From contig JAGLYE010000001.1 of assembly GCA_023132505.1 (NCBI GenBank), positions 1 through 23,202 of the forward strand: DNA of 23,202 bases. Direction: 5' to 3'. Of this stretch, positions 1 to 17,115 are shown in pieces. How positions within the stretch are numbered: the first letter of the stretch is position 1; every line of letters begins with the position of its first letter. Below the pieces are notes generated by a model, which was given only the letters and a program-made list of their open reading frames with translations, did no database searches and was not told the origin of the DNA. The stretch is from Bacteroidales bacterium (GTDB lineage: Bacteria; Bacteroidota; Bacteroidia; Bacteroidales; B18-G4). The translations under genes were made by a program, and so were the position numbers.

Positions 1-3000
1 CTGGAGTACGTGCTGATGGTGGGAGATGCTTATCCCAACGGTGGTAACAACGGTGGGCCGGATGATGTACCCATGTACTGGTGGGCACCCTCCGGTGAAG
101 ATCCATCCTATTCTGATACCTGGTATGTATGCCTCGATGGTTCGGATGATCATTATGCTGATCTTGCTATTGGTCGTTTTACTTATGATGACCTCTCAGA
201 ACTGGAGCTGCAACTCCAGAAAACCTTAAATCATTACCAGGCACCTGATGCATCTTCTAATTGGGCTGAGAACACCTTACTGGTTGCCCATAAGCAAAAC
301 TATCCGTCGAAATACACCCAATGTAAGAATGATATCAAAAATTTTAGCTACGCAATACAAACACCCATATTTACAGAATGCTATGGCGGTGCAGGAGCAA
401 CCAATCAGGATATCATCGACTATGTAAACAACACTTCCTGTGGTATTTTCAATTATCGCGGACATGGCAGTGAGACTGAATTCTGGCAATGGGGAGCAAG
501 CGGTTCCTTTACCAATACACACATCCAGCAGCTTACGAACACCGATAAATTATTTGTTCTCTTCGATGTTTGTTGTTCCAATATGAATATCGTTTCCCAT
601 GCCGGAGACTGTCTTTGCGAATCATTTATGAAATCACCGGTGGCGGCTGTGGCAATCAACGGAGCGATCATTCCTTCTTATACTATTCCCAATCATGATT
701 ATGACAAGGAAATGTATAAAGCTGTTTTTAACGAAGGAATTTACAATATCGGTTATGTCACTAATTCGGCCAATGTTATCGTACTGAATGTACATGGTAC
801 CATTGGTCGTTCAAACGTCAGAACCTATCTCTGGCTTGGTGATGCCTCTCTTGAGCCCTGGACACTGCAACCTGCCGATTTGGAGGTTTCTCACTTGCCA
901 ACCCTGTTTCTTGGCTTCACTGAATTCACTGTAACTGTTGAAAGCGGAGGCACCCCGGTTGAAAATGCAAGGGTTTGTATCACCAATGATGATCTGTCAC
1001 TTTATGCCGTAGGCTTTACAGATGTAACGGGAGAAGTTGTTATTAATTTCGGAGGACCTGTACAAGACCCGGGAACAGCTACTATTGTTGTATCTGCCCA
1101 CAACTATATTCCTTACAATACCGATATCCCCATCATTCCACAGCAAGGTTCATATTTGCTGCTTGACAATGTGCTTGTTGATGATCAAACAGGCAATAAC
1201 AATGGCCAAGCCGATTTTATGGAATTTATCAGCCTCGATGTAAGCCTGGAAAATATTGGTATTGATGAAGCACAGGGGGTTACAGCTACGATCGCATCAA
1301 CAGATCAGTACATCACCATTCTCGACGATGAAGCTTCCTGGGGCAATATTCCCGGCAATTCTATGGGAACAGCCGATAGTGCGTTTTCGATCCAGGTAGC
1401 AGACCTGGTACCCGATGGGCATATTGTCCTCGTGGAAATGGAAATACAGGATCAATCCGATGGCCAATGGTTTGCTGAATTCGAATTATTGCTCGGGTCA
1501 CCGATAATTAATATCGTTGAAATGCAAATTGATGATGCAGCCGGTGGAAATGGCAATGGCAGGATTGATCCCGGTGAAACCCTTACCATAAAAATTAAAA
1601 ACAATAACCTTGGACATTGCCCGGCAGAAAACTGCCTGGGCACACTCGAATCCGGCAGTCCATACCTTACATTCCTGAATGATTTTGATTCCCTCGGTAC
1701 TTTAGGACTCCTTGGGTACAAGTGGGCCGAATTCGAAGTTGAAGTAGAACCCAATGCCCCGAATGGAATATATTATGCCGATTTCAGTTATGAACTCAGC
1801 TCTGCTCCATTTAGCGAAACCCTCAACTTTACAGAAAAGATCGGTATTATAGTCGAAGACTGGGAAAGCAACGGGTTCGATTCTTTTGAATGGCAGCACG
1901 GAGGAGATCATTACTGGAACATCACCCCGCTCTATCCTTATGAAGGCAATTATCATGCTCAATCCGGAAATATCAGTGATAACCAGAGTTCTGTGTTATC
2001 GCTGAGTACAGAAGTGATGATTTCAGATACGATCTATTTCTATCTGAAAACATCCTCCGAATTATCCGACAAGTTTAAATTCTATATCGATAACAGCCTG
2101 AAGGATGAATGGTCGGGTATCGGTAATGGGTGGATCTTTACTAAATATCCCGTTAGCGAGGGGGTACACACTTTCAAATGGATCTATGAGAAAAATTCAA
2201 CCATCTCTGCAGGAGACGATTGTGCCTGGATCGATTTCATTGAATTCCCTCCACTGATGACCCTCACAGCATTTGCCGGCTTTGATGCGATGATCTGTGA
2301 AGGCGATGACTTCCAGTGCGACGGACAGGCGACCGCTTATGAATCCGTGCTCTGGAGCACTTCCGGAACAGGGGTATTTGATGATGCTACAATTCTGGAT
2401 CCCATTTATACACCAAGCACTGATGATCTGAACAATGGTTGGGTGACCCTGACCCTGGAAGCTACAGATGAAAATCTTCAGACCGCTTATGATAATATGA
2501 TATTGAGTTTCCGTACAGAGCCCGGCGAGGCCTCCCAGCCAATCGGGCCGGATTTCGTTAACCTGTATTATACTACAATGTCGGAATATACCACTGAACC
2601 CCTTCCATTTGCCGATAATTATGAGTGGATCGTTGACCCGGTAGATGCCGGAAACATTGATGGTATTGGCACAACCGGCACCATCACATGGAATCAATCA
2701 TTTCTGGGAACAGCAATTATATCGGTACGGGGGGTGAACACATGCGGGAATGGAACATTTTCGCCTGGCATTGAGGTGTTGGTTGATAATTTCACATCAG
2801 TAGAAGAAATCCTGGAAGAACAAAACCTTGCCATTTTCCCCAACCCCAATAAAGGTGAATTTACTATCGAACTAAAAGGTGAAAATTTTGGAAATGTTGA
2901 AGTGCGGATCTATGACATTAATGGTTCATTGGTTTATCACGAAACAGGTATCAACGCTGATAAAGGTTTCACCGGCAGGATCAATATGTTTAACTCCCCG

Positions 3001-3072
3001 CAAGGTATGTATTTCGTAAAAATAATGCATGACCGGGGTACCATCGTGAAAAAGATACTGCTCAACAGGTAA
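1..3072 (+). CDS. C25 (gingipain-family) cysteine protease with T9SS sorting domain, 5' end cut by window edge
   Basis: The reading frame is open from base 1, so the gene starts upstream; 1023 codons are visible. The GTG at base 10 is an internal Val in YVLMVGD, a core C25 strand, not a start. The catalytic domain runs to about residue 285, with His155 in YRGHGSE and Cys192 in FDVCCSN. Then follow an Ig-like domain (288-370), two beta modules opened by DDQTGNNNGQAD (394) and AGGNGNGRIDPGE (511), a jelly-roll domain (617-751), two PKD/Ig-like domains (757 and 849 onward) and a T9SS type A sorting domain from IFPNPNKGEF (946). The product should be exported, anchored at the surface and act as an endopeptidase. 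It is closest in layout to the three genes that follow. Around residues 99-108, where Arg-gingipain has its specificity Asp, I see no acidic residue, so specificity is unassigned. Catalysis itself looks intact. Confidence 0.93.
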   Translation: MEYVLMVGDAYPNGGNNGGPDDVPMYWWAPSGEDPSYSDTWYVCLDGSDDHYADLAIGRFTYDDLSELELQLQKTLNHYQAPDASSNWAENTLLVAHKQNYPSKYTQCKNDIKNFSYAIQTPIFTECYGGAGATNQDIIDYVNNTSCGIFNYRGHGSETEFWQWGASGSFTNTHIQQLTNTDKLFVLFDVCCSNMNIVSHAGDCLCESFMKSPVAAVAINGAIIPSYTIPNHDYDKEMYKAVFNEGIYNIGYVTNSANVIVLNVHGTIGRSNVRTYLWLGDASLEPWTLQPADLEVSHLPTLFLGFTEFTVTVESGGTPVENARVCITNDDLSLYAVGFTDVTGEVVINFGGPVQDPGTATIVVSAHNYIPYNTDIPIIPQQGSYLLLDNVLVDDQTGNNNGQADFMEFISLDVSLENIGIDEAQGVTATIASTDQYITILDDEASWGNIPGNSMGTADSAFSIQVADLVPDGHIVLVEMEIQDQSDGQWFAEFELLLGSPIINIVEMQIDDAAGGNGNGRIDPGETLTIKIKNNNLGHCPAENCLGTLESGSPYLTFLNDFDSLGTLGLLGYKWAEFEVEVEPNAPNGIYYADFSYELSSAPFSETLNFTEKIGIIVEDWESNGFDSFEWQHGGDHYWNITPLYPYEGNYHAQSGNISDNQSSVLSLSTEVMISDTIYFYLKTSSELSDKFKFYIDNSLKDEWSGIGNGWIFTKYPVSEGVHTFKWIYEKNSTISAGDDCAWIDFIEFPPLMTLTAFAGFDAMICEGDDFQCDGQATAYESVLWSTSGTGVFDDATILDPIYTPSTDDLNNGWVTLTLEATDENLQTAYDNMILSFRTEPGEASQPIGPDFVNLYYTTMSEYTTEPLPFADNYEWIVDPVDAGNIDGIGTTGTITWNQSFLGTAIISVRGVNTCGNGTFSPGIEVLVDNFTSVEEILEEQNLAIFPNPNKGEFTIELKGENFGNVEVRIYDINGSLVYHETGINADKGFTGRINMFNSPQGMYFVKIMHDRGTIVKKILLNR

Positions 3073-3093
3073 AGCCTTGCACTTAATTATATC

Positions 3094-3124
3094 AAAACCG
3101 GCAGCATTCCCTGCCGGTTTTTTT
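3094..3124 (+). terminator. Rho-independent terminator of the first protease gene
   Basis: A perfect 11-bp stem, AAAACCGGCAG at 3094-3104 and CTGCCGGTTTT at 3111-3121, encloses a 6-base loop and is followed by further T residues. It lies 21 bases after the stop codon and separates gene one from gene two. Confidence 0.9.
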
Positions 3125-3141
3125 GTATAACAATCGCACAC

Positions 3142-3210
3142 ATGTCCTAATTTATATGCGTTATAAATTAGACGTTTTGGACATTCTTTTCAGCACTTAA
3201 AATGTCTAAT
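3142..3210 (+). promoter_or_regulatory. Overlapping inverted repeats upstream of the second protease gene
   Basis: CTAATTTATA (3147-3156) pairs perfectly with TATAAATTAG (3162-3171) around a 5-base loop, and the flanking ATGTCC (3142-3147) can pair with GGACAT (3179-3184). A second pair, ATTAGACGTTTT (3167-3178) and AAAATGTCTAAT (3199-3210), matches at 11 of 12 positions. The two hairpins share bases 3167-3171, so they cannot form fully at once. The hexamer GTCTAA/TTAGAC or a near copy occurs three times, which would also suit an operator. A weak TAATTTG (3226-3232) lies downstream, without a clear -33 partner. The structures are seen; a regulatory role is inferred. Confidence 0.4.
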
Positions 3211-3267
3211 ATTCATAAAATTCCATAATTTGGGCAACCATCAATTCTAAAAACCAATTAACCTGCT

Positions 3268-6200
3268 ATGAAACGCTTTCTAAAATTAACTCTCACAGGA
3301 TTAATCCTCCTGGTATCTACACTGCTTTCGGCACAGACCAGCATGACTTATAACTTCAATGATCCACTGCTGAGTAACACTGAAGACGGGTATACATCAA
3401 TCGTTATCGACAATTGTTATAATCTGGGGGAAGAAGGCACACCCCTGCTGCCGTATTATGGTGCAAACATCCTTCTTCCTTTGGGAACAGAAATTAAAGA
3501 GATAAAGATTTTATCGATCAGCTTTGGTGAAAGCTATTCGGATAAGATTATACAGCCGGCCCCAGGGCAGTTTCCTATTTCCAAGGGAGCCCCAAAAGGT
3601 TACAAAGCTGTGGCTGATGCCTCTATCTACAACTCCAACGAAAGCTTTCCATCCAGTGTTATCGGATATCCGGCTACTGAGTTCCTCGCCGGACATTCCA
3701 TAGGAACATTTAGCATTTGTCCCGTAATTTATCATCCGAAAGATTCTGAGCTAAGCCTGATAAAAAGCATTACGCTTGAGATCATTACTCAAACCACCGA
3801 TCAGTCAATACAGGCAGCGTCAGTACTTAAAAACCATCCATCTCAAATAAGAAGGATCCGGAAAATTATTGACAACCCTGATAATCTGCTTACTTACAAC
3901 TATCCTGACAATAAATCGAATGAATATGATATCCTGTTCATTACTGACCAGGCCCTGGAGCCATATTTTGCCCCGTATATTTCATTTAAAACAGAAACAG
4001 GTTATCTGGTGAAAACCATTACCACTGATTACATCTATGCTAATTATAGTGGTAATGACAATCAGGAAAAGATCAGGAACTGCGTTATTGACTACTATTC
4101 CAACTTCAATATTTTTGCAGTTATCCTTGGTGGCGATGCCGATAAAAATAACCCTGCCCAGGATTTTGTGCCTCACAGGGGATTTTACGGTGTCATTGAT
4201 AATGATTATGACCTTCCTGCCGATATGTACTACGCCTGCCTCGATGGTAACTGGAATAATGATGGGGACCTGAAGTGGGGAGAACCAGGGGAAGATGACC
4301 TCTTTGCTGAAGTGATCGTTGGTCGCATTGCTGTAGATGATTCAACAGAAATTGCGCATTTTATGCATAAACAGTTCATGTACCAGGACCAACCCGTTGT
4401 GGCAGACATTGAAAAAGCACTGATGCTCGGAGAAGCCCTCGACGCTTCGACCTGGGGGGGTGACTCAAAAGATGAGATTGCCACAGGCAGTTCCAATAAT
4501 GGTATTACTACGGTCGGTGTAGCGCCCAATTTTACAATTGAGTACCTCTATGAAAGGGATGGATGGTGGAACAAAAGCCATGTATTCGATCAATTTAACA
4601 ATACAGGTATTAATTTGATTAATCATCTCGGACACTCCAACACATATTACAACATGAAGATGTACACATCTGATGTGACAACGAGTAATTTTACCAACGA
4701 CGGCATTAGCAGGGGTTATACAATAGGCTATTCACAGGGTTGTTACAACGGTTCTTTTGATAACAGGGGAACATCTCCTAGCTCATACGGAGCAGATTGT
4801 TTTGCAGAAAAGATCACAACCATCGAAACCGCAGAGGTCGCCTGTATTGCCAACTCCCGCTACGGCTTATACTCTCCGGGAACTACCAATGGGCCTTCGC
4901 AGTTATTCGACCGTGAGTTTTATGATGCCATTTTTGGTGAGGACCTTTGCATGATCGGCGAAGCCAATGGCGATTCCAAATCCGACCTGGCCGCTTTTAT
5001 TGCCGGAAACTCCGGCCTTAGGTGGTGTTGCTATATCCTGAATGTTTTTGGTGATCCCACACTGGATATCTGGACTGCTGTCCCAACGCCTATCACTGCA
5101 ACATATCCTGCAGCAGTGGCCTTAGGAACCGCAAGCATTACTTTCCAAACTGATGCCCCCGGTGCCAGAATAGGCCTTGTACAAAACGGGGAATTGATCG
5201 GACGCGGGCTTACCGACAATAGTGGTGATCTGGTATTAAACCTCTTTGCCCAGATCAGTATTATTGATACCATACAGGTTTCTATTATTGGCCATAACAA
5301 AGAGAGGCATTTTGGAGAAATAACTGTTATTGCAGGTCAGCCATTTGTGTGTTACGAATCACACTACATAAACGATACGATCTTAGGAAATGGGAATGGT
5401 CTCAGTGAATATGGTGAAACTGTGAAGCTGAGCCTGAAGGTAACCAATATGGGCGAGCTGGACGCCACAGATGTTAACGTCACTATAACGGCATTCGATC
5501 AATATATGATCATTCACGACAGCTCTGCATATTATGGGGATATCCTCCCTGGGCAAAGCATTATCGTGCCGGACGGGTTTGAAATTAGCCTGACCGATCA
5601 GGTTCCGGATGGTCATGAACTTCTCATCACCGTATTGGCCGAGGGGCAGGATATATGGGAAAGCAGTTTCATTGAAATAGCCTGTGCTCCGGCATTCACA
5701 TCGGGATTATTGAGTATCGATGACAGTGGAACCGGAAATGGTAACGGACAATTCGATCCGGGTGAAACAGCCGACATCCATATCGAGATCATCAACAGCG
5801 GGCACAGCCGGGCTATAAATATCAATGGTTTGGTATCCTCCGACGATCCTATGGTAAATATCATCTCAAACGCTTCCTTTGTGGATACATTGGAAGTGAA
5901 TGAAATCTTTGAAGCAATATATACAGTCTTTACGGATCCCCTTTCACAGCTCGGGGCTACTTTCCAGCTTGTTCATGATATTGAGGCCGGGCCATATGTA
6001 CAACAGCGCATTTACAACATCAATAACGGACTAATATGTGAAGATTGGGAAACCGGCAATTTCAACCGCTTTAACTGGACCCATTCAGGACAGCAAAGCT
6101 GGGAGATCACTGATGTTAATCCTTTCGAGGGTGTTTTCAGTGCCAGGTCAGGGAACATCACGCACGAAGAGAATTCTACTATCCAGATTGGCCTGTTTGT

Positions 6201-7254
6201 AGAGGAAGATGATAGTATTTCATTCTTCAGAAAAACATCCTCTGAGGCATCGGATTTCCTTAATTTTTATATAAACAATGTGCTAAAAGGACAATGGGCA
6301 GGTGATGAAGATTGGGAAAGGGTTTCCTACCCTGTGGAAGAAGGGGTAACCTTCTTCAAGTGGGAATATGCAAAAAACGCCTCTAACACCTCAGGAGAAG
6401 ATTGTTCCTGGTTAGATTATATCGTTTTACCATTTGTAAACACAGCCTCTGCCTATGCAGGACCGGATCAGTTAATATGCGAAACCGGTATATGTTCATT
6501 AAGCGGGGAAGCCCTTAACTATAATTCAGTTGAATGGATAAGCAGTGGCGACGGTAGTTTTGATGACCCGGAAATCCTTGAACCCATCTACAGTCCCGGG
6601 CCGGATGATATTGCTATGGGAGGAGTCGACTTAACCCTGGGGGCAACATATAATCAAACAGGAACCACATTTGATGTTATGCACCTGAGCATTGATGGCA
6701 ATCCCGGGATTCCCGACATGCCGGATGGCCCGGAATATGTTGATTTGCTAACCGTTACTTCATCCGAATATACAAGCTCCGCTTTACCATCAATCATTGA
6801 ATATGAATGGAAACTGGATCCGGATGAGGCCGGTATCATCGAAGGTAACGGAACAATCGGCACAGTCACCTGGGAACCCACCTATCATGGGCTGGCCTAT
6901 GTTTCTGTCAGGGCCATTGACACTTGTGGCCCGGGCTTGTATTCCGACGAATTTGAAGTCCTGGTAGATGAAGGCGGACTTGGTATTATTGAGCCCGGCA
7001 GCAAAGCCAGCCTGGCCATATATCCAAATCCAAATGAAGGCACTTTTACATTGGAAGCAACAAGCCAGCAACTTACAAACCTTAATATCAAGGTGTTTAA
7101 TGCATCAGGAACTCTGATCTTACATGAAAAAGCCTGCACTAAAAATAATGTGTTTATAAAGCATTATGACCTGAGTGCATATCAGCAAGGTTTGTATTTT
7201 ATACAACTTACCGGAGAAGGGATTTCTATAACGAAAAAACTCATCCTGCAATAA
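3268..7254 (+). CDS. C25-family cysteine protease with adhesin-like modules and T9SS sorting domain
   Basis: 1328 residues. A Sec signal peptide (1-22, ending LLSAQ) supports this ATG. Residues 23 to about 215 form the prosegment and about 220-600 the C25 catalytic domain, with His456 in NHLGHSN and Cys492 in SQGCYNG. This branch differs from the true gingipains: it has GHS rather than GHG, and the NSRYG, GTNGPSQ and FDREFYDAIF stretches common in other bacterial C25 members. Then come an Ig-like domain (595-690), two modules opened by GNGNGLSEYGE (702) and GTGNGNGQFDPGE (818), a jelly-roll domain (922-1054), two PKD/Ig-like domains (1062 and 1154 onward) and the sorting domain from IYPNPNEGTF (1251). 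Asp402 in SKDEI lies roughly where Arg-gingipain has its specificity Asp, but the alignment is too loose to assign a specificity. A terminator lies upstream, so the gene probably has its own promoter. Confidence 0.95.
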   Translation: MKRFLKLTLTGLILLVSTLLSAQTSMTYNFNDPLLSNTEDGYTSIVIDNCYNLGEEGTPLLPYYGANILLPLGTEIKEIKILSISFGESYSDKIIQPAPGQFPISKGAPKGYKAVADASIYNSNESFPSSVIGYPATEFLAGHSIGTFSICPVIYHPKDSELSLIKSITLEIITQTTDQSIQAASVLKNHPSQIRRIRKIIDNPDNLLTYNYPDNKSNEYDILFITDQALEPYFAPYISFKTETGYLVKTITTDYIYANYSGNDNQEKIRNCVIDYYSNFNIFAVILGGDADKNNPAQDFVPHRGFYGVIDNDYDLPADMYYACLDGNWNNDGDLKWGEPGEDDLFAEVIVGRIAVDDSTEIAHFMHKQFMYQDQPVVADIEKALMLGEALDASTWGGDSKDEIATGSSNNGITTVGVAPNFTIEYLYERDGWWNKSHVFDQFNNTGINLINHLGHSNTYYNMKMYTSDVTTSNFTNDGISRGYTIGYSQGCYNGSFDNRGTSPSSYGADCFAEKITTIETAEVACIANSRYGLYSPGTTNGPSQLFDREFYDAIFGEDLCMIGEANGDSKSDLAAFIAGNSGLRWCCYILNVFGDPTLDIWTAVPTPITATYPAAVALGTASITFQTDAPGARIGLVQNGELIGRGLTDNSGDLVLNLFAQISIIDTIQVSIIGHNKERHFGEITVIAGQPFVCYESHYINDTILGNGNGLSEYGETVKLSLKVTNMGELDATDVNVTITAFDQYMIIHDSSAYYGDILPGQSIIVPDGFEISLTDQVPDGHELLITVLAEGQDIWESSFIEIACAPAFTSGLLSIDDSGTGNGNGQFDPGETADIHIEIINSGHSRAININGLVSSDDPMVNIISNASFVDTLEVNEIFEAIYTVFTDPLSQLGATFQLVHDIEAGPYVQQRIYNINNGLICEDWETGNFNRFNWTHSGQQSWEITDVNPFEGVFSARSGNITHEENSTIQIGLFVEEDDSISFFRKTSSEASDFLNFYINNVLKGQWAGDEDWERVSYPVEEGVTFFKWEYAKNASNTSGEDCSWLDYIVLPFVNTASAYAGPDQLICETGICSLSGEALNYNSVEWISSGDGSFDDPEILEPIYSPGPDDIAMGGVDLTLGATYNQTGTTFDVMHLSIDGNPGIPDMPDGPEYVDLLTVTSSEYTSSALPSIIEYEWKLDPDEAGIIEGNGTIGTVTWEPTYHGLAYVSVRAIDTCGPGLYSDEFEVLVDEGGLGIIEPGSKASLAIYPNPNEGTFTLEATSQQLTNLNIKVFNASGTLILHEKACTKNNVFIKHYDLSAYQQGLYFIQLTGEGISITKKLILQ

Positions 7255-7418: not shown

Positions 7419-10400
7419 ATGAAAAAATCATTCGTTTTTTCCTTGATCATTCTCATTACAACCCTCTTTACTTACGCAGATGAATGGATTGATATTACAA
7501 GCCCGGAATCTGCCCCTGCTGAGATCCGGCTTATAGCAGCTGATAAGCAATCAAGCAGCATCTTGTTCAGGGTCCCTGGTTTCGATTTTGTGGAAGTCAG
7601 TACGGAACAAGGCCCTGCCTTTTTGCTAAAGCTTGAAGATGGCAGCCCGATGCTTGAGGCAGGCGCTCCGGATCTCTTGAAATTAACTGCTTCGGTGGTT
7701 ATTCCTGATCTGGCCGGAATGGATGTACGTGTTTTATCTTCAGATTATACTGAATATGAAAACATCCTGATCGCACCTTCCAAGGGTAATCTTACACGTG
7801 ATATCAACCCGGATGATGTGCCTTTCACTTTCGGAGAGCAATATACGCAAAACAGTTTTTTCCCGGGCAAACTTGTTGAACTCCGCAGTCCTTATATCAT
7901 AAGGGATTACAGGGGCCAGACGGTGATTGTCTATCCTTTCCAGTATAATCCGGTTACCCGTATATTAAGGGTTTATCATAGTCTTGATGTTGAAGTTTTT
8001 AAAATAAATGACAATGGCGCGAATCCACTTATACGAGAGAAGATGCCTGAAAAGATCGCTCTTGAATATTTTGCAATCTACGATCTTCACTTTCTGAACA
8101 GCCCGCAAAACCTTACTGATTACACACCCGTTAGCGAACATGGTAATATGCTTGTCATTTCCTACAATGCTTTTATGTCAGCCATGCAGCCTTTGATCGA
8201 CTGGAGGATACAAACAGGTACTCCTGTTGAGATTGTTGATGTTGCAAGTATAGGTGGATCTACACAGATCAAAAATTTTATCGCTGATTATTACAATACC
8301 AATGGATTAACATTTGTCCTGCTGGTTGGCGATGCAGCACAGGTACCTACATCCTATGCGAGTGGGGATTCTGATAATAACTATTCCTATATTGTTGGTA
8401 ACGATCATTATCCTGATGTCTTTATTGGCCGTTTTTCAGCAGAAAATATTGGTCATGTTGAAACACAGGTAGAGCGCACCATTACCTACGAAATAAACCC
8501 CGACCTTGGCTTTGACTGGTTTCCACGTGCAATAGGGATCGCCTCTTCACAGGGTCCCGGTGATGATGGTGAATATGATTATCAGCATGTACGCAATATG
8601 AATACCGACCTTATAAACTTTACCTACACTTTTGCTGCAGAACTTTTTGACGGAAGCCAGGGTGGAAATGACGCCCCGGGCAACCCTTCACCAGCAATGG
8701 TCGCCACTGAAGTGAATACCGGTGCCACGATCATTAATTATACAGGCCACGGCAGCACAAATTCATGGGGTTCCTCAGGATTCTCAAGCAGCAATGTTAA
8801 CGCCCTTACCAATAACGGAATGTGGCCTTTCATCTGGTCAGTTGCCTGTGTGAACGGAAACTTTGTTGGGGGAAGCTGTTTTGCTGAAGCATGGCTGCGC
8901 GCAACAAACAATGGCGAGCCCAGCGGAGCTGTCGCCACTATGATGTCGACCATTAACCAAAGTTGGAACCCGCCCATGTGCGGACAGGATGAAATGGTTG
9001 ATGTGCTCGTTGAAACATATCCGGGCAATATCAACAGGACTTTCGGAGCAGCTTCTATGCATGGCTGTATGCAGATGAATGACGAATATGGTTCAGGAGG
9101 TAATGCCATGACCGATACGTGGGTTTGTTTCGGCGATCCGTCGCTCCATGTAAGAACAGCCTTCCCGCAAACCATGACTGCGTCCTATATGACAACCTTG
9201 CTTATCGGCATGAACTCATTAGAAATAACTGCTAACACAGATGGTGGGACTGCATGTCTTACAAATGACGGTAATATCATAGCTGCCGGAATTATAGAAG
9301 GGGAATCCGTTATATTGACATTTCCGGAACTTATCAATCCATGCACGCTTACACTGACAATCACAGCTTTTAACTTCCTGCCGCACATCAGTGAGATAGA
9401 TGTAATACCCGGGAATATGCCTTTTCTTGTCTTTGACGATGACCATGTGATCGATATTAACGGAAATAATAATGGTAACCTCGACTTTGGCGAATCTGTC
9501 ACCTACACCATTGACCTGCTAAATCTGGGTGGTGTAGACGCTACAAATGTCGACGTGACACTCGAAGCTAATGATCAATATGTTAGCATCACCGATAATG
9601 TTGAATTATATGACCTGATCCCGGCCGGACAGTCAGTGGGCATGCCGGAAGGCTTTGCTATGGACATTGCCGAAAATACACCCGATGAACACATCATCGA
9701 CTTCACCATTACGGCTACCGATAGCGACACAACATGGACCATAGAGTACCAGGCAGAAGTCTTTGCCCCGATACTCAGCATTGCCGAGATGGTCATTGAT
9801 GACAACAGTACCGGAAATGGGAACGGCAGGCTTGACCCGGGCGAAACAGCTACCATTAAGGTTAAAAATTACAATTCAGGGCATTGCCCGGCCGAAAATT
9901 CATTTGCTACACTGCAATCGGATTGTCAGTATTTAACATTTTCAAACAACACTGATTCTATAGGCACACTGGGATTGCTTGGTTTCCTATGGGCCGAATT
10001 CGAAGTAGAAGTAGATGCAGGTGCTCCTGATGGAGCAGCTATTGCATACTTTGAATATGAATTAACATCGGGAAACCTTACTGAGTTTACCACTTTTCAG
10101 AAAAAAATCGGCCTTATATACGAGGATTGGGAAACCGGCGATTTCAGCCGCCATGAGTGGGAACTTGGTGGTGAGGTGCTTTTTGAACTAACCGGCATTT
10201 ATCCCTTTGAAGGGGTTTACTCAGCCAAATCGGGCAGCATTGAAGATAACGAACAAAGTGAACTTTCCGTAGATATGGAGGTGATGCTTCCCGATTCCGT
10301 CACATTTGTACTAAAGGTATCCTCCCAGCCTAATAAAGACATCTTCAAATTCTACATTGATAATTCACTCAAAGGTGAATGGTCAGGTTTTGGCATTGGA

Positions 10401-11342
10401 TGGCAAAGGGTTTCCTTCCCGGTAGAGCCTGGGAATTATACATTTAGATGGGTTTATGAAAAAGACGGTTCCGGAATGGCGGGTAGTGACTGTGCCTGGA
10501 TCGATTTCATCACTTTCCCACCCCTGATGACACTCACTTGTTATGCCGGAATTGATGACTATACATGCGATGAAAGCAACTTCCAATGCCTTGGAGAAGC
10601 TACCAATTGGGTATCTGTTGAATGGACAAGCTCCGGAGATGGTACTTTCGACGATCCCAATATCCTTGAACCCATATACATGCCGGGCATTGATGATATT
10701 AACAATGGAAGTGTTATATTGACCCTTACGGCAGAAGATGCAGAGGGTTTGTTGGTTGATGATGAGATGACCCTCCTGCTTATGGCTGTCCCTGAAGTGC
10801 CATCAACACCGGCAGGACCGGATTATGTAAACCTGAATATTGTAACTTCATCAGAATACACCACAGAAGCTGTTCCATATGCAGATCACTATGAATGGAA
10901 TGTTGAACCCGGTGAAGCAGGATCTTTCGCTGGAATCGGGACTACGGGAACTATTACCTGGAACCAGTCCTTCCTGGGCACTGCAATTATCACAGTCAGA
11001 GCCATGAATAATTGCGGCAATGGCGAATACTCTGAAGGATACAATGTAACGGTTGATAATTACACTACCGTTGAAGAGCTGACTACAGAGAATACGTTCC
11101 AATTATGGCCAAATCCGAATACCGGCAACTTCAGCATTCAGGCATCCGTGAGCAAAGCCGGAAATTATTCGCTACGGGCCTATAACCTCGTAGGAAAAGA
11201 AATGGCTTCCAGAACTAACATTTATCTTAATGGAAAGAATAGTATAAAGATCGATTTTGGAGGCCTTTCCGAAGGACTTTACTTCATGGTTATCGAAGGC
11301 CAGGGAGAAAAGATGATCCAGAAACTGATTATTAGAAAATAA
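7419..11342 (+). CDS. Arg-gingipain-like C25 cysteine protease with T9SS sorting domain
   Basis: 1307 residues with a signal peptide (1-20, ending FTYA). Residues 21-234 are a C25 propeptide, including VYPFQYNPVTRILRVYHSL. The catalytic domain starts near YTPVSEHG (235), matching the YTPVEE start of mature P. gingivalis RgpB. Further RgpB-like landmarks, from memory of that family, are VGNDHY, NYTGHGS with His444, SVACVNG with Cys477, STINQSW, GQDEM, NRTFG and MTDTW..FGDPSL. Asp387 in GEYDYQH aligns with RgpB Asp163, the S1 residue that binds Arg, so Arg-X cleavage is predicted. Downstream are an Ig-like domain (579-665), two loop-opened modules (679, 794), a jelly-roll (902-1034), two PKD/Ig-like domains (about 1040 and 1132) and the sorting domain from LWPNPNTGNF (1228). 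Unlike RgpB, no Arg directly precedes Tyr235 (the sequence is LTD-YTPV), so maturation may differ. Confidence 0.96.
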   Translation: MKKSFVFSLIILITTLFTYADEWIDITSPESAPAEIRLIAADKQSSSILFRVPGFDFVEVSTEQGPAFLLKLEDGSPMLEAGAPDLLKLTASVVIPDLAGMDVRVLSSDYTEYENILIAPSKGNLTRDINPDDVPFTFGEQYTQNSFFPGKLVELRSPYIIRDYRGQTVIVYPFQYNPVTRILRVYHSLDVEVFKINDNGANPLIREKMPEKIALEYFAIYDLHFLNSPQNLTDYTPVSEHGNMLVISYNAFMSAMQPLIDWRIQTGTPVEIVDVASIGGSTQIKNFIADYYNTNGLTFVLLVGDAAQVPTSYASGDSDNNYSYIVGNDHYPDVFIGRFSAENIGHVETQVERTITYEINPDLGFDWFPRAIGIASSQGPGDDGEYDYQHVRNMNTDLINFTYTFAAELFDGSQGGNDAPGNPSPAMVATEVNTGATIINYTGHGSTNSWGSSGFSSSNVNALTNNGMWPFIWSVACVNGNFVGGSCFAEAWLRATNNGEPSGAVATMMSTINQSWNPPMCGQDEMVDVLVETYPGNINRTFGAASMHGCMQMNDEYGSGGNAMTDTWVCFGDPSLHVRTAFPQTMTASYMTTLLIGMNSLEITANTDGGTACLTNDGNIIAAGIIEGESVILTFPELINPCTLTLTITAFNFLPHISEIDVIPGNMPFLVFDDDHVIDINGNNNGNLDFGESVTYTIDLLNLGGVDATNVDVTLEANDQYVSITDNVELYDLIPAGQSVGMPEGFAMDIAENTPDEHIIDFTITATDSDTTWTIEYQAEVFAPILSIAEMVIDDNSTGNGNGRLDPGETATIKVKNYNSGHCPAENSFATLQSDCQYLTFSNNTDSIGTLGLLGFLWAEFEVEVDAGAPDGAAIAYFEYELTSGNLTEFTTFQKKIGLIYEDWETGDFSRHEWELGGEVLFELTGIYPFEGVYSAKSGSIEDNEQSELSVDMEVMLPDSVTFVLKVSSQPNKDIFKFYIDNSLKGEWSGFGIGWQRVSFPVEPGNYTFRWVYEKDGSGMAGSDCAWIDFITFPPLMTLTCYAGIDDYTCDESNFQCLGEATNWVSVEWTSSGDGTFDDPNILEPIYMPGIDDINNGSVILTLTAEDAEGLLVDDEMTLLLMAVPEVPSTPAGPDYVNLNIVTSSEYTTEAVPYADHYEWNVEPGEAGSFAGIGTTGTITWNQSFLGTAIITVRAMNNCGNGEYSEGYNVTVDNYTTVEELTTENTFQLWPNPNTGNFSIQASVSKAGNYSLRAYNLVGKEMASRTNIYLNGKNSIKIDFGGLSEGLYFMVIEGQGEKMIQKLIIRK

Positions 11343-11347
11343 CCACA

Positions 11348-11477
11348 GGGGCTGTCTCAAAAGCCTAATATTTAAGTCATTTCGACCGAAGGGAGAAATC
11401 TATTATGCTGAAATCAGTAATACAGATTTTTCGCTAACACTCGAAATGACCTTGAGCAGACCTTTTGAGACAGCCTC
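11348..11477. mobile_element. MITE-like palindromic element between two protease genes
   Basis: GGCTGTCTCAAAAG (11350-11363) is repeated perfectly in inverted form at 11462-11475; one mismatch further the arms reach 16 bp (11348-11363 and 11462-11477). Inside, GTCATTTCGA (11376-11385) pairs perfectly with TCGAAATGAC (11441-11450), and AGAAATCT near 11394-11401 nearly pairs with AGATTTTT (11424-11431). The element is about 130 bp, has no coding capacity, and looks like a non-autonomous element with IS-type terminal inverted repeats. The inner motif resembles dispersed palindromic repeats seen in Bacteroidota genomes (recollection, not searched). I see no convincing target-site duplication. It fills most of the leader of the Lys-gingipain-like gene, starting 6 bases after the previous stop codon. 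Confidence 0.7.
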
Positions 11478-11503
11478 CTTTAACAAAACCAAAATTGCTT
11501 AAA

Positions 11504-14500
11504 ATGAAAAAATCATTCTCAGTTATTGCTTTTGCCTTTGCATTGTTTGCTTTTGGCAATATGTATGCACAAAACACTATTTATGTGGGGCAAAGCATGC
11601 CAAATGGTCTCACCATTGAAACAAATACTTTTTTTGAATTCTCAGGTAAGCATCATGTATCCTCATTTTCGGCTACTGAACAAAATACGGAAGAGGGCTT
11701 ATTTACACGCCTGGCGGTTCAGGGAAACTCAAAAACTGATTTATTCGGCCATCCGGAAATGCCGGCAAACCGAAAACTGATCAGGGTTCCCCTTGGTGCC
11801 AATGCTATTGTTACCATCCACAATGCTATTTACGAGGATATCGATCTGAAAAAAGAAGGTTTCCCGGCAGTTGTATATCCGGCACAACCTCCAAGGATCA
11901 AAAGTGACGACTATCATGAATTTGTAATAGACAAGGCCGCGTATCAGCAAGCCGGATTTGAAAAACATGAGTTGGTGAGTGTTGACATGCTGGGTATTTT
12001 AAGGGATAAGCGTATCGCCAGGATCAATTTCATCCCATTTCAATATGATCCCGTCAGGCACATCTTAAGAGTTTATCACCAAATCGATTTTACAGTAGAA
12101 TTTAAAAATGCCGATATTCCGGCTACCCTTGCGCTGGAAGAAAATTTTGCATCCCCTTGCTTTCAATCGGTCAATAATTTTCTTGTCAACGATATACCTG
12201 AAAGTAACAGGGAGAATTTCAAAGTATATCCAATAAAATATGTGATCATCGCCGATAGGATGTTCGAAAGCCAGTTACAGCCATTTATTGAATGGAAAAC
12301 ACACAAAGGCTTTATTGTTGTTGAATCATATACTGATGAAAGCGCAGTTGGCAACACATTGTCTTCAATAAAATCATACATTCAGGGGCTTTATGATTCC
12401 GGCACACCGGATGACCCCGCCCCTTCTTATGTGCTTTTCGTGGGGGATATACAACAGATCCCAACCTGGAGTAACGGCAATGGTGCCACCGATCGTAATT
12501 ACTGTGAATATACGGGTGACCTTTTCCCTGAAATCTACTACGGGAGGTTTTCTGCACAGAATACAGGACAGCTTCAGCCATACATTGACAAGACCCTGCT
12601 ATATGAAAAGTATCAGATGCCAGACCCTGCTTACCTGGATGAGGTAGTATTGATTGCCGGCATGGATGGGTCCCATGGATATGATTGGGGCAATGGGCAG
12701 ATCAACTACGGAACAATAAACTATTTCAATCCCGAGCACGGGATTACTGCCCACGCCTACCTCTATCCTCAATCCGGATCCAATGCAGCACAGATACGGC
12801 AGAATATCAGTGACGGGGTTACTTTTGGGAATTATACAGCCCATTGCAGCCCAAGCGGATGGGGCAACCCTTCCTTCACGATCTCTCACATCCCTGCTCT
12901 GCAGAATCAGGATAAGTATGGCGTACTGATTGGTAATTGCTGTTCATCAAGCGAATACCAGCTTAATGAGTGCTTTGCAGAAGCCATAGTCCGTGCTCAA
13001 AATAAAGGAGCTGTTGGCTATATTGGTGCCTCAAACAGTACTTATTGGGATGAGGATTATTACTTTGCTGTAGGGGTAGGACAAATCTCACAAATTCCAC
13101 CAGCTTATTCCGAAACCGGACTGGGACTTTACGACCGGGCCTTTCATGATCATGGCGAAGATTTTGGAGAATGGTATGTCAGCGGTGATGAAATGATCTT
13201 TGCAGGGAATTTGGCTGTTACAGAAGGATCACCGGGATCGGCACAGTACTACTGGGACGTTTATAACTACATGGGAGATCCATCCCTGATGGTTTTCTTC
13301 TCAAACCCGCCTGTTACTGCGGTAACTTATTCCCCTTTGCTGCCACTGCAATCAACCTCTTTTACAGTAACCACCGAACCTTATGCCTATGTCGCGCTTT
13401 CCATGAATGGCGATTATATAGGTGCTGCTCTGGCAAGTGCAGACGGTATTGCTGTCCTGGAATTCCCGGCGCTTACACAAAATGGAGAGGGTGATGTTGT
13501 GGTTACAAGGCAAAACGGACAACCATTTTTCGGTACCGTGATCATTGCATCCCCAAGCGGCCCTTACCTTATGCTCGAAGAGGTTAGCATCAGTGATGCA
13601 AATGGCAACAATAACGGACAAGCTGATTTCGGAGAATCCGTTGCACTGGACGTTAGTCTGACAAATGTCGGCAACGGAGATGCCAACAATACCATCAGTA
13701 CTTTAATTGGCAGTGACCCTTATGTTATCGTCACGAAAAACATTCATCAATGGCCAGTCATTCCCGGGCAAACAACCCTGACTGAAGATAGTACATTTTC
13801 ACTCGACATTGCCGCTGATGTCCCGGATCAGCATATGGTAAATTTTGATATTGAACTCGTAACTTCATCAAAAGAAACCTGGACATATGAATATGACATG
13901 ATGATCAACGCCCCTGTACTAACCATTGAATCGATGATCATTGACGACAGCCAGACCGGCAACGATAACGGACGCCTCGACCCGGGTGAAACGGCAACCC
14001 TTAAAATCATAAACAGAAATACAGGTCACTGCGAAGCCTATGATGCGGTGGCACAACTAAATTCGATATGCCAGTATCTTAGCTTTGAAAACAATACAGA
14101 TTCCATTGGCACATTAGGTTTGCTTGGTTATAAGTATGCTGAATTTGTTGTGGAGGTTGATGCAGATGCCCCCATCGGTGTAGCTACTGCATTGTTTAAC
14201 TATTCGATAAATTCGGGAGAGTACAATGCTGCCAAAGAATTCAGCGAAAAGATCGGCTTGCTTTTAGAAGACTTTGAAACCGGCGACTTTACCAAATTTG
14301 ATTGGGAAATGGCGGGAGATCAACCCTGGCAAACCACCAACATATATCCTTATGAAGGGGATTATTCTGCTATCTCAGGGAATATTACCGACGGGCAAAG
14401 CTCAATACTTTTTATCAACGTTGATGTAATGATCGCCGATTCTATATCATTTGTCTTTAAGGTGTCTTCACAAGTGAATCAAGATAAACTGAAGTTTTAC

Positions 14501-15478
14501 GTCAACAACACCATGAATGGAGAATGGTCAGGTGTTGGCGGAGGATGGAACGAAGTTTCCGTTTATCTCCCTATTGGAATTCATACCTTAAAATGGGTTT
14601 ATGAAAAAGATGCCGGCGGTTTCTCCGGCGACGACTGCGCATGGCTTGATTATATCATTTTCCCACCCCTGATGACACTTACTTGCTATGCAGGGCTTGA
14701 TGATTATACTTGCGACGGTAGCAGCTTCCAGTGCCAGGGACAAGCCACTGACTGGATCTCTGTTGAGTGGACAACCACCGGTGACGGAAACTTCGACAAT
14801 GCAGGTATTCTTGAACCGGTTTATACACCGGGTAGTGACGATATTGCCAATGGCAGCGTTATTCTCACACTTACTGCAGAAGATACGGAAGGCTCTTTGG
14901 TTGATGACGAGATGACACTTATGGTTATTGAAACACCCGAAACCCCCGTGACTCCTGAAGGCCCCGATTATGTGAACCTTTACATTGTTACATCTTCAGA
15001 ATATACAACAGAGCCGGTTCCATATACCGACTATTATGAATGGCGTGTAGAACCTATCGAAGCCGGGTCCTTTGCAGGTATCGGAATAATCGGGACCATT
15101 ACCTGGAATCAATCATTTCTGGGTACTGCCACCATATCGGTCAGGGCAATGAATAATTGCGGCGACGGACTGTTTTCAGATGGCTTTGAAGTAACAGTTG
15201 ATAATGTTGTTGCTATTCCTGAAGCTTCATTGGAAAATACCTTCTCTGTATATCCAAACCCAAGCAAGGGAAATTTCAATCTTATAAGCTCTTCCGGGAT
15301 AAGGGATGCAAGCATCATCGTTTATAATATCATTGGAGAAAAGGTATTTGACCTCAGCACTGATATTGCAACAGGTGAAAGCATACATATCGGGCTTGAA
15401 CATTTCCCAAAAGGCCTATATATCCTTTCCATCAGAACTGATAATTCCGGGTTTACCGAAAAGCTGATCATTAAATAG
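11504..15478 (+). CDS. Lys-gingipain-like C25 cysteine protease with T9SS sorting domain
   Basis: 1324 residues from ATG 11504. An upstream in-frame TTG (11465) lies inside the MITE repeat and was rejected because the ATG opens a clean signal peptide (1-23, ending NMYAQ). A prosegment reaches about residue 236. The catalytic domain resembles P. gingivalis Kgp in YTDESAVGNTLSSIK, IDKTLLYEK, YLDEVVLIAG, NPEHG, IGNCCSS and YIGASNSTYW. His447 in NYTAHCS and Cys480 are catalytic. Asp518 in DEDYY aligns with Kgp Asp516 and Thr445 with Kgp Thr442, the S1 residues contacting Lys, so Lys-X cleavage is predicted. The following Ig-like domain (600-685) also resembles Kgp. Then come two loop-opened modules (698, 813), a jelly-roll (921-1054), two PKD/Ig-like domains (about 1061 and 1153) and the sorting domain from VYPNPSKGNF (1248). 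I see no good promoter in its leader; it may be read from gene three or from within the inserted element. Confidence 0.96.
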   Translation: MKKSFSVIAFAFALFAFGNMYAQNTIYVGQSMPNGLTIETNTFFEFSGKHHVSSFSATEQNTEEGLFTRLAVQGNSKTDLFGHPEMPANRKLIRVPLGANAIVTIHNAIYEDIDLKKEGFPAVVYPAQPPRIKSDDYHEFVIDKAAYQQAGFEKHELVSVDMLGILRDKRIARINFIPFQYDPVRHILRVYHQIDFTVEFKNADIPATLALEENFASPCFQSVNNFLVNDIPESNRENFKVYPIKYVIIADRMFESQLQPFIEWKTHKGFIVVESYTDESAVGNTLSSIKSYIQGLYDSGTPDDPAPSYVLFVGDIQQIPTWSNGNGATDRNYCEYTGDLFPEIYYGRFSAQNTGQLQPYIDKTLLYEKYQMPDPAYLDEVVLIAGMDGSHGYDWGNGQINYGTINYFNPEHGITAHAYLYPQSGSNAAQIRQNISDGVTFGNYTAHCSPSGWGNPSFTISHIPALQNQDKYGVLIGNCCSSSEYQLNECFAEAIVRAQNKGAVGYIGASNSTYWDEDYYFAVGVGQISQIPPAYSETGLGLYDRAFHDHGEDFGEWYVSGDEMIFAGNLAVTEGSPGSAQYYWDVYNYMGDPSLMVFFSNPPVTAVTYSPLLPLQSTSFTVTTEPYAYVALSMNGDYIGAALASADGIAVLEFPALTQNGEGDVVVTRQNGQPFFGTVIIASPSGPYLMLEEVSISDANGNNNGQADFGESVALDVSLTNVGNGDANNTISTLIGSDPYVIVTKNIHQWPVIPGQTTLTEDSTFSLDIAADVPDQHMVNFDIELVTSSKETWTYEYDMMINAPVLTIESMIIDDSQTGNDNGRLDPGETATLKIINRNTGHCEAYDAVAQLNSICQYLSFENNTDSIGTLGLLGYKYAEFVVEVDADAPIGVATALFNYSINSGEYNAAKEFSEKIGLLLEDFETGDFTKFDWEMAGDQPWQTTNIYPYEGDYSAISGNITDGQSSILFINVDVMIADSISFVFKVSSQVNQDKLKFYVNNTMNGEWSGVGGGWNEVSVYLPIGIHTLKWVYEKDAGGFSGDDCAWLDYIIFPPLMTLTCYAGLDDYTCDGSSFQCQGQATDWISVEWTTTGDGNFDNAGILEPVYTPGSDDIANGSVILTLTAEDTEGSLVDDEMTLMVIETPETPVTPEGPDYVNLYIVTSSEYTTEPVPYTDYYEWRVEPIEAGSFAGIGIIGTITWNQSFLGTATISVRAMNNCGDGLFSDGFEVTVDNVVAIPEASLENTFSVYPNPSKGNFNLISSSGIRDASIIVYNIIGEKVFDLSTDIATGESIHIGLEHFPKGLYILSIRTDNSGFTEKLIIK

Positions 15479-15532: not shown

Positions 15533-16537
15533 TTAACTAAAAAGCAAGCTGCAACCCCTTACATCACTGCTATCGGTACGGCCAAGCACCTCAAAGGACC
15601 CATCGGGATGTAATTTTCCAATATCCTGGGTTTCGATAAATGCACACGAATGTATATTAGCCAGGTCAATGATATTGATGGCCCCGGTTTTACCTTCCGG
15701 CAATATTTGAAAAGGATCCTGTATATCGCGTACAATTACTTTCATCCACGGCGGGGCAATAAACCTTCCATCTCCCGTTGAATACGCTTGTGATAGCAAT
15801 TCTGTCATTCCATACTCCGAATGGATTGATTTGAGTTGAAAAGCATTGCATAGATGCTTATGCAATTCAGCCCGGGTGATCTCCTCCTTCCTGCCTTTCA
15901 TCCCGCCTGTTTCCATCAGGATAATGTTTTTACCCACCGGAAAGCTATATTGCGTTGCAAAATCAAGAAGGGCAAAGGAAACACCTATCAATATGACTTT
16001 TGTTTTATCTGAAGAAAATATTTTCAGTTTATCAGCAAGTTGATCATGTTCATAGAGGAAAAATCCACTTTCAGCATATCCTCCCGCCCGTATCAGCTCT
16101 TCGACCATAAAAACAAGTGACGATCCTTCCCTTTCAAGGTATGAGGGCAGCAAGGCAAGGAAACGGTATTCGGCCGGTTCGCCGTAAAATACCCTGAATG
16201 CATTTATAAAACTCTTTTTACAGAGTTCAAGGTTCCTGATATAATGCTTGCTGCGCTGCATCCCGCTGGTACCGCTGCTTGTAAAAACAATTTCTTCATC
16301 GAAGATTCCTGATATGATCTTGTGGTTTTTAAAAAACCCAATGGGCAGGAAAGGTATTTCATAAGAATTGGAAATGCGCTGTATATCAATCCCCAGAAAA
16401 TTTATATAATCACGATAAACGGTATTCTCCCGAGCCTGGTAATGAAATATTTCCATTGCGAGACCGTTAAATGCTTCAGGCGTCAGCTTCCGGAAAATCT
16501 TCTCCTGCAGCGAGTCGATATGGGAAAAAGCAGACAA
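15533..16537 (-). CDS. LuxE-like acyl-protein synthetase / acyltransferase family protein
   Basis: About 334 residues if it starts at TTG 16537. No ATG or GTG lies in the right place: the first in-frame ATG (16456) would remove the family-like N terminus (HIDSLQEKIF...LAMEIFHYQ), and the longest open frame (to 16672) would overlap the divergent lipoprotein gene by nearly 100 bp. The hallmark is FTSSGTSG (about residues 85-92), the adenylate-forming loop of LuxE and related acyl-activating enzymes. Family features also include IPFLPIGFFKNHKI before it and GRTDSSDVRGCSLL at the C terminus, where Cys330 could be the acyl-carrying Cys as in LuxE of luminous bacteria. Expected chemistry is ATP-dependent activation of a carboxylic (fatty) acid and transfer through Cys. 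No luciferase or reductase genes are nearby, so the acceptor is unknown; stand-alone homologues are common in Bacteroidota. The protein is probably cytoplasmic, with no signal peptide. Confidence 0.85.
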   Translation of the reverse strand: MSAFSHIDSLQEKIFRKLTPEAFNGLAMEIFHYQARENTVYRDYINFLGIDIQRISNSYEIPFLPIGFFKNHKIISGIFDEEIVFTSSGTSGMQRSKHYIRNLELCKKSFINAFRVFYGEPAEYRFLALLPSYLEREGSSLVFMVEELIRAGGYAESGFFLYEHDQLADKLKIFSSDKTKVILIGVSFALLDFATQYSFPVGKNIILMETGGMKGRKEEITRAELHKHLCNAFQLKSIHSEYGMTELLSQAYSTGDGRFIAPPWMKVIVRDIQDPFQILPEGKTGAINIIDLANIHSCAFIETQDIGKLHPDGSFEVLGRTDSSDVRGCSLLFS

Positions 16538-16575
16538 TTTAAATTTTCGTAATTTTACATTAAATAAATACCTGC

Positions 16576-17115
16576 ATGAGGCTTTCTTCAAAAATACAGT
16601 TATTTCTGGTAATCCTGTTGATAGCTGGATTTGGCTCCTGCAAAAAGGTTGAAAAATTCCCCGACATCCCACGGATTGAATATATGAGTTTTACCAGCCT
16701 TTACAATCCTGATCTTGAAATTTTTGACCGGGGAGTGCTCAGGTTTTCTTTTGAAGATGGCGATGGTGATATCGGTTTAAACAATGGCGATACCCTGCCC
16801 CCCTTTAACCCTTCCTCAAAATATCATTATAACCTTATCATTACCTATTTTGAAATGCAAAACGGGGAACTCAAAGAAGTGCCTATCCTTTGGTTCAATC
16901 CCCAGACAGAGCAATACGACACCCTTACACTCAGCGCACGCATTCCTAACCTGACACCGCAGGGGATTAACAAAGCAATTAGCGGTGAAATCCAGGATAC
17001 CATGTTCATTTACAATTTCAATTCGGTTTACGACACCATTAAATTAGAAGCTTTCATTGTAGACCGGGCTTTAAATGAGAGCAATACTATCAGCACTCCG
17101 CTAATAGTAAGATAA
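16576..17115 (+). CDS. Small hypothetical lipoprotein with acidic DGDGD motif
   Basis: 179 residues. The N terminus (1-22) is a lipoprotein signal peptide ending in the lipobox GFGSC, with Cys22 as the expected lipid-attached residue, followed by KKVEK. The mature part is mostly beta-strand-like and carries FSFEDGDGDIGLNNGDT (residues about 57-73), an Asp-rich loop that could bind calcium and that I recall from small Bacteroidota lipoproteins of unknown function. It diverges from the LuxE-like gene with only 38 bp between the starts. TAATTTTA (16550-16557) in that gap is a weak -7 candidate, which would leave a very short leader. The product is likely periplasmic or outer-membrane anchored. 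I cannot assign a function. Confidence 0.8.
   Translation: MRLSSKIQLFLVILLIAGFGSCKKVEKFPDIPRIEYMSFTSLYNPDLEIFDRGVLRFSFEDGDGDIGLNNGDTLPPFNPSSKYHYNLIITYFEMQNGELKEVPILWFNPQTEQYDTLTLSARIPNLTPQGINKAISGEIQDTMFIYNFNSVYDTIKLEAFIVDRALNESNTISTPLIVR
16589..16596 (-). promoter_or_regulatory. Possible -7 promoter element for the LuxE-like gene
   Basis: Read on the minus strand this is TATTTTTG, an exact TAnnTTTG match, 51 bases upstream of the proposed TTG start at 16537. No good -33 TTG lies at the right distance. If used, it rules out the longest upstream start, since transcription would begin downstream of 16672. It lies inside the start of the divergent lipoprotein gene. Confidence 0.3.

Follow-up and report, generated by a model that had tools for sequence, protein, structure and literature searches.

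Four C25 protease genes lie in tandem at the start of the contig

The stretch analysed here, hereafter the window, comprises 23,202 nucleotides and is contig 1 (JAGLYE010000001.1) of a draft Bacteroidales genome (GCA_023132505.1; 1.90 Mb, 352 contigs, 75.7% complete). Its first 15.5 kb hold four tandem genes for C25 cysteine proteases, designated g1 to g4, all on the + strand and separated by 195 (g1-g2), 164 (g2-g3) and 161 bases (g3-g4). The third gene is of the type of the gingipain RgpB of Porphyromonas gingivalis (Arg-type) and the fourth of the type of the gingipain Kgp (Lys-type); this Arg/Lys tandem is real and well conserved, and is part of the four-gene array. An earlier note on this DNA had named in its title an adjacent Arg-type and Lys-type pair: the adjacency that it reported is correct, and the title understated the locus, which has four genes and likely four specificities.

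Pfam searches identified a C25 catalytic domain, a C25 Ig-like domain and a sorting tail of the type IX secretion system in all four proteins, and a C25 propeptide in g2, g3 and g4. After the Ig-like domain, g1 to g4 carry about 640 mutually alignable residues, referred to below as the chassis. The first gene, predicted to encode an Asp-specific protease, occupies 1..3072 (+) and lacks its 5' end, which lies beyond the contig start (catalytic domain 1-855, chassis about 1129-3069, type IX tail 2833-3063). Since P0271, a database copy, matches g1 at 1023/1023 residues and adds 299 N-terminal residues that include the propeptide, the whole gene is available elsewhere. The second gene (3268..7254, +; chassis about 5311-7251, tail 7018-7251) encodes a protease with propeptide and a predicted hydrophobic (Ile/Leu-like) P1 preference. 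The 1307-residue protease of the RgpB lineage is encoded by g3 (7419..11342, +), with the propeptide at about 7515-8000, the catalytic domain at 8148-9149, the chassis at about 9402-11339 and the tail at 11103-11336. The protease of the Kgp lineage is encoded by g4 (11504..15478, +; catalytic domain 12239-13294, chassis about 13556-15475, tail 15248-15475). Both assignments were made by phmmer, Pfam and tree. As listed, the g4 reading frame opens at a TTG at 11465; the residue numbering of the earlier note, followed here, corresponds to the ATG at 11504, which is also the start of the database copy P0121 (1324 residues).

PorU is the sortase of the type IX system. The four proteins are type IX cargo, each having a C-terminal sorting domain above cut-off in a genome that encodes PorU; type IX tails gave 83 matches in this genome, all except one above cut-off. 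Two of its 12 C25 matches are PorU-type sortases in tandem on the - strand of contig 201 (20-3184 and 3777-7088), scoring 1197 and 1388 bits against a cut-off of 420 (NF033707). A single PorU copy is usual. The PorU proteins share a C25 domain and a sorting tail with g1 to g4, but are encoded on another contig and lie far from them in the tree described below.

g3 and g4 belong to the RgpB and Kgp lineages

The specificity types of g3 and g4 were assessed by phmmer searches against PDB chains. The catalytic domain of g3 scored 315 bits against RgpB (1CVR/4IEF) and 53 against Kgp, while that of g4 scored 300 bits against Kgp and 112 against RgpB. The prodomains matched in the same way, which rules out a likeness limited to the catalytic core: that of g3 scored 128 bits against the RgpB prodomain and 26 against that of Kgp, and that of g4 scored 97 bits against the Kgp prodomain, with the RgpB prodomain absent among the matches listed.

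Residues of the S1 pocket and catalytic dyad were placed by their index in the PDB chains, and codons were checked. RgpB D163, H211 and C244 align to g3 Asp387 (8577..8579), His444 (8748..8750) and Cys477 (8847..8849), and the equivalent of RgpB Trp284 is also present. Kgp D388, T442, H444, C477 and D516 align to g4 D388, Thr445 (12836..12838), His447 (12842..12844), Cys480 (12941..12943) and Asp518 (13055..13057), with an equivalent of Kgp Trp513. According to the available part of one report, the T442 side chain of Kgp binds the P1 head group (PMC6426963). Conservation was measured in the best 120 of 4706 (g3), 3760 (g4) and 260 (g1) homologues, which are top-scoring sets and not random draws. 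Asp387 is kept in 120/120 g3 homologues and Asp518 in 120/120 g4 homologues, where residue 445 is Thr in 116 proteins and Ser in the other 4; because these residues are so conserved, a chance likeness is excluded. The earlier note had aligned g3 with RgpB and g4 with Kgp and singled out the same three residues, and was right on both counts. The S1 placement of Asp387 and Asp518 rests on alignment with solved enzymes. The g3 protease is predicted to cut after Arg and that of g4 after Lys.

To place the catalytic domains, a careful maximum-likelihood tree of 37 domains was built, including 24 hand-picked Lys-type or Arg-type rows. RgpB and 13 Arg-type rows including g3 formed one group (support 100/100), and Kgp and 15 Lys-type rows including g4 formed another (100/99). 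Without the two PorU rows and g2, the Arg-type group was supported at 99/99 and both groups at 99/97 or better. A tree joining RgpB with Kgp was rejected (p 5e-55), as was one joining g3 and g4 as sister copies (p 4e-5). Long branches lead to both P. gingivalis enzymes and to g1 and g2. A quick tree widened to 60 rows, from which 13 genes with a matched catalytic stretch below 280 residues were left out, agreed with the main tree. An outcome that the earlier note had named as fatal to its proposal, a grouping of g3 with g4 away from Rgp and Kgp, was thus not obtained. The P. gingivalis enzymes fall one in each group, so the Arg/Lys split predates the window lineage as well as P. gingivalis itself.

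A proposed prodomain plug residue suggests likely specificities of g1 and g2

In the available text of PMC4357240, the RgpB prodomain is described as injecting Arg126 into the S1 pocket, where it forms the same salt bridge with Asp163 as a P1 Arg does. For Kgp, the accessible part of PMC3677877 models a prodomain Lys in the pocket and reports that the RgpB and Kgp prodomains gave no inhibition when tried on each other's enzyme. In the sets analysed here, the plug residue lies exactly seven positions after a conserved Pro in 120/120 Arg-type, 119/120 Lys-type and 119/120 g1-type proteins. The plug column is taken to be that of RgpB Arg126 and Kgp Lys110/129, on the basis of PDB chain positions 107 and 115 and presumed tag and signal-peptide offsets. 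The plug is Arg in 120/120 Arg-type proteins (g3 Arg127, 7797..7799), Lys in 119/120 Lys-type proteins (g4 Lys133, 11900..11902) and Asp in 119/120 g1-type proteins, in which the flanking residues vary. For g2, rows above 150 bits that span residues 110-560 were kept and duplicates removed, giving 31 rows including the copy from the window; the plug (g2 Ile104, 3577..3579) is hydrophobic in 31/31.

The pockets of g1 and g2 were compared with those of the solved enzymes. At the place of Kgp T442, g1 has an Arg (452 in P0271; 457..459), and near the segment aligned with RgpB D163 it has a Lys (403 in P0271; 310..312), a candidate basic S1 residue; each position is invariant in 120/120 g1-family rows. 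At the T442 place g2 has Leu454 (4627..4629). The catalytic His and Cys are at 463..465 and 574..576 in g1 and are His456 (4633..4635) and Cys492 (4741..4743) in g2; they are conserved in 120/120 and 31/31 proteins, respectively. The plug residues and the invariant S1 Arg of g1 suggest that g1 likely cuts after Asp and g2 likely after hydrophobic or aliphatic residues, and the array therefore likely holds four specificities.

Such P1 preferences have precedents in clan CD. Passages of PMC4357240 list an acidic P1 for caspases (C14A) and legumain (C13), and Leu at P1 for the MARTX cysteine protease domain (C80). The predicted P1 of g1 is acidic like that of caspases and legumain; unlike them, g1 belongs to C25 by sequence, as does a g1 relative by predicted fold, and it combines a prodomain of gingipain type with a secretion tail. 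Likewise, g2 differs from the MARTX domain in being a C25 protease with a gingipain-type prodomain. No Asp-specific or hydrophobic-specific C25 protease was recognised among the open-licence papers listed, as judged by titles and the starts of abstracts.

Contigs 288 (1851-5981), 83 (2452-4377) and 28 (3-3695) of the same genome encode another C25 group, in which the S1 position is Arg (HRDHG). The plug of this group gave no clear reading, so that its specificity is not readable from this column.

Prodomain junctions suggest activation between partners

The residue at the prodomain/catalytic junction was examined in both types. Among 120 Lys-type proteins it is Arg in 107 and Lys in 12, with one gap; among 83 Lys-type genes at the loci described below it is Arg in 65, Lys in 14, Gly in 2 and Asp in 2. 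In g4 it is Arg236 (NR|EN, 12209..12211). As the Lys-type junction is mostly Arg, an Arg-type partner would be able to activate the Lys-type zymogen, a role as natural activator that could account for the lasting linkage of the two genes.

The Arg-type junction is more varied: Arg in 69, Lys in 23 and Asp in 28 of 120 proteins. Asp was also found in 19 of 64 locus genes, and 14 of these 19 have a basic residue one position earlier. The last prodomain residue of g3 is Asp234 (LTD|YTPV, 8118..8120), at the place of RgpB Arg229, and no Arg or Lys occurs after Lys212 up to the junction; the autoprocessing Arg of RgpB is not kept. The nearest kin of g3, at loci L025 and L032, likewise have a junction Asp with no preceding basic residue, and RgpB-like self-processing is unlikely at all three junctions. 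Autoprocessing at Arg229 is a trait of RgpB and is not kept by all of its lineage. That g1 might activate g3 through the Asp junction is only a thought; locus L023 has a g1-type gene yet an Arg junction. A conserved junction Asp as the activation site of g1 itself was ruled out, as that part of the sequence varies within the g1 family.

A four-protease array with proposed zymogen plugs

Taken together, these results make it probable that the locus encodes four tandem type IX-exported C25 proteases kept latent by zymogen plugs, with g3 and g4 predicted to cut after Arg and Lys and g1 and g2 likely after Asp and aliphatic residues. The features read from the sequence in support are the lineages, catalytic dyads, S1 residues, prodomains, tails, plug residues and PorU genes. 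In the proposed mechanism, each protease would be exported as a zymogen through the Sec and type IX systems, with the prodomain blocking S1 by a residue that mimics a substrate and matches the preference of the enzyme. Cleavage in or close to the plug loop, by the enzyme itself or by a neighbour, would free the enzyme, and the Arg-type partner would activate the Lys-type zymogen at its Arg junction. The four heads may then break down extracellular protein jointly, at sites that complement one another, and so supply the cell with amino acids.

Several points count against this reading. The plug rule derives from one solved complex with a published description, that of RgpB; for Kgp, the support is a published model, together with a solved zymogen known from its PDB title and a mention. 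Each family arose once in the tree, so the constancy of the plug reflects shared ancestry in addition to selection. On contigs 28, 83 and 288 of this genome, the further C25 genes have a mixed plug column (Phe, Lys, Val) in a gapped loop. In the g1 family, the column at Kgp D516 is Glu in 118/120 and Asp in 2/120 in a stretch where the alignment is unsure, and this Glu could neutralise the S1 Arg. The catalytic part of the predicted g2 model lies mostly at 50-70 pLDDT. The absence of Arg or Lys at the g3 junction suggests that its activation differs from that of RgpB. An 11-pair terminator-like hairpin with a T tail 3' of g1 (3094..3121, +) argues against a single transcript for all four genes; terminator-like sites in the region number 13, against 13.5 in shuffled sequences, and the call of this hairpin rests on its length. 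Finally, 18 of 70 Lys-type genes in the survey below have no Arg-type gene next downstream.

The alternative that fares best is that only g3 and g4 are sharply P1-specific, g1 and g2 being diverged C25 paralogues in which plug and S1 residues are inherited structure with no matching specificity. It draws on the table of C25 specificities in the available part of PMC4357240, which lists Arg or Lys only, as well as on the Glu column of g1, the long branches of g1 and g2 in the 37-domain tree and the mixed plug letters of the other C25 genes. Against it, the g1 plug is nearly invariant amid varying neighbours, the S1 Arg and Lys of g1 and the hydrophobic plug of g2 are invariant in their sets, and the catalytic His and Cys are kept throughout. 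This alternative is therefore regarded as possible, though unlikely.

Lys-type/Arg-type tandems are widespread

To determine how widely the tandem occurs, a genome collection was scanned with a Lys-type alignment. The scan matched 491 stretches, 451 of them encoding relatives, and the best 80 gave 78 loci with 80 Lys-type genes. Fewer than 700 bases follow 10 of these genes. Within 600 bases downstream of the 70 with room, on the same strand, an Arg-type gene was found after 52, a Lys-type gene after 1, another C25 gene after 3 and none after 14. An Arg-type neighbour stands on one side in 55 of the 68 loci with room and is lacking in 13. Among the 18 genes with no Arg-type gene next downstream, those at L021, L023 and L025 have one directly upstream, that at L031 precedes another Lys-type gene, beyond which lies an Arg-type gene, that at L020 has another C25 gene in between, and that at L067 has an Arg-type gene 653 bases on, just beyond the cut-off. 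Locus L031 (9779-23770) carries two Lys-type and then two Arg-type genes, as if the pair had doubled.

A second count in 149 genomes of the order found at least 33 same-strand pairs in at least 32 genomes and at least 27 family codes, picked by eye. This is a lower bound for loose pairs, with gaps of up to 1795 bases between matched parts, at most four candidates scored per genome after the first look, and the weaker candidate pairs of G003 and G122 left uncounted. Several of the 78 loci come from the same genome and the two surveys overlap (contig 4 of genome G102 is locus L021), so their counts are not independent. The records include bins labelled Candidatus Cloacimonetes and Chlorobiota, labels that may be in error, and the available part of PMC8542988 reports a gingipain-like C25 protein with dockerin in Cloacimonadota. 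The nearest named relatives of g4 in the collection were found in Bacteroidota metagenome-assembled genomes (MAGs): L032 (CSMAG_1812), at 85% over the first 654 residues, and L025, at 74%. No description of an Arg/Lys tandem outside Porphyromonas was recognised among the open-licence papers listed, by titles and the starts of abstracts.

The Lys-type gene comes first in 31 of the 33 pairs; the Arg-first order occurs in two, the window and its family member G102, and across both surveys in the window, L021, L023, L025 and L032. This reversed order is the point in favour of a second alternative, in which the adjacent pair was assembled separately in the window lineage from unlinked genes. The breadth of the same-strand tandems and the 52 directly adjacent cases of 70 tell against it, as does a further pair, with the Lys-type gene first, on contig 287 of the window genome, whose Arg-type gene is cut by the contig end; separate assembly is accordingly judged improbable. 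The earlier note had left open whether the system was ancestral or parallel. A separate, parallel origin of the two types is excluded by the tree, and an ancestral pairing is likely because the tandems occur in so many family codes.

The chassis appears to group mainly by lineage

The C-terminal regions were compared between and within loci. Identity between g3 and g4 is 56% in the chassis and 29% in the head; between g4 and its counterpart in G102 it is 46% in the chassis and 70% in the head. The chassis of the other Lys-type gene of the window genome is 31% identical to that of g4. In a chassis tree of 21 hand-picked rows, Lys-type and Arg-type proteins of one locus or lineage joined each other at L031 (100/100), L020 (91/96), L022 (81/98) and in the window with L025 (100/99). 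Trees with a single chassis clade were rejected both for the seven Lys-type rows (p 0.00015) and for the seven Arg-type rows (p 0.0004). The longest exact DNA word common to g1 to g4 is at most 21 bases, so an exchange would not be recent, and recent gene conversion was ruled out as the cause of the chassis likeness. The heads group by type and seem old and fixed; the chassis groups by lineage and seems to have been swapped or homogenised inside the array of each lineage. Plain vertical descent of the chassis from a single gene that duplicated, the array members never exchanging sequence, would fit the lack of long exact words and the near relatives, in which chassis of like type pair up (between L108 and L023 and between the window and L025, at least 100/99), but is the least probable of the three alternatives given the opposed chassis and head identities and the deeper joins by locus.

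The chassis was searched for gingipain adhesins. Cleaved adhesin domains gave no Pfam match at E ≤5, in a search that filters out the majority of weak matches, and a PDB profile search found no chain of a gingipain adhesin; the chassis was thus not recognisable by sequence as a gingipain adhesin. This agrees with the earlier note, which had placed the two specificities side by side on a shared C-terminal part other than that of Porphyromonas. Such cleaved domains characterise Kgp and RgpA of P. gingivalis but not RgpB. The contrast that the note drew with P. gingivalis is half wrong, as its claim that rgp and kgp carry different adhesins was not supported: the available part of PMC5266723 describes hagA, rgpA and kgp as containing identical repeats, both inside a gene and from one gene to another. 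As rgpA and kgp share repeats, a common chassis under unlike heads is a likeness to P. gingivalis and not a contrast.

Relative to RgpB and RgpA (MEROPS C25), g3 is alike in prodomain, catalytic domain, Ig-like domain, S1 Asp, dyad, Arg plug and sorting tail; it differs in its tandem with a Lys-type gene, its chassis of about 640 residues with no recognised adhesin and its junction Asp in place of Arg. Similarly, g4 shares with Kgp the Lys-plug prodomain, S1 Asp and Thr, dyad and sorting tail, but its chassis has no recognised cleaved adhesin domains and it adjoins an Arg-type gene.

Neighbouring genes

A gene for a LuxE-like acyl-protein synthetase adjoins the array (15533-16672, - strand) and is convergent with g4. 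Further on, a subtilase (S8) gene with a weak type IX tail match (21169-23169, - strand) likely encodes another secreted protease near the array.

Implications

Gingipains have been studied as virulence factors of one oral bacterium. The tandem, found across many uncultured genomes, suggests that the Arg/Lys pair is basically a set of digestive proteases, likely of bacteria from sediments and similar habitats, as judged by MAG names. In estuary sediment, according to the part of PMC6752024 available, C25 genes made up over 40% of the predicted exported peptidases at each depth and were taken to prefer Arg. The fuller proposal stands at about even odds: four P1 specificities on a common chassis, the residue seven after the conserved Pro as a readable specificity code, the Asp and hydrophobic types as the first of their kind in C25, and an Arg/Lys tandem inherited long before P. 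gingivalis virulence. If the plug code is true, the cutting preference of thousands of C25 proteases would be readable from their sequences. Asp and hydrophobic cutting, as predicted here from plug and pocket residues, would be new rules for the C25 family, and such enzymes would be new tools for protein analysis and new terms for models of organic-matter turnover.

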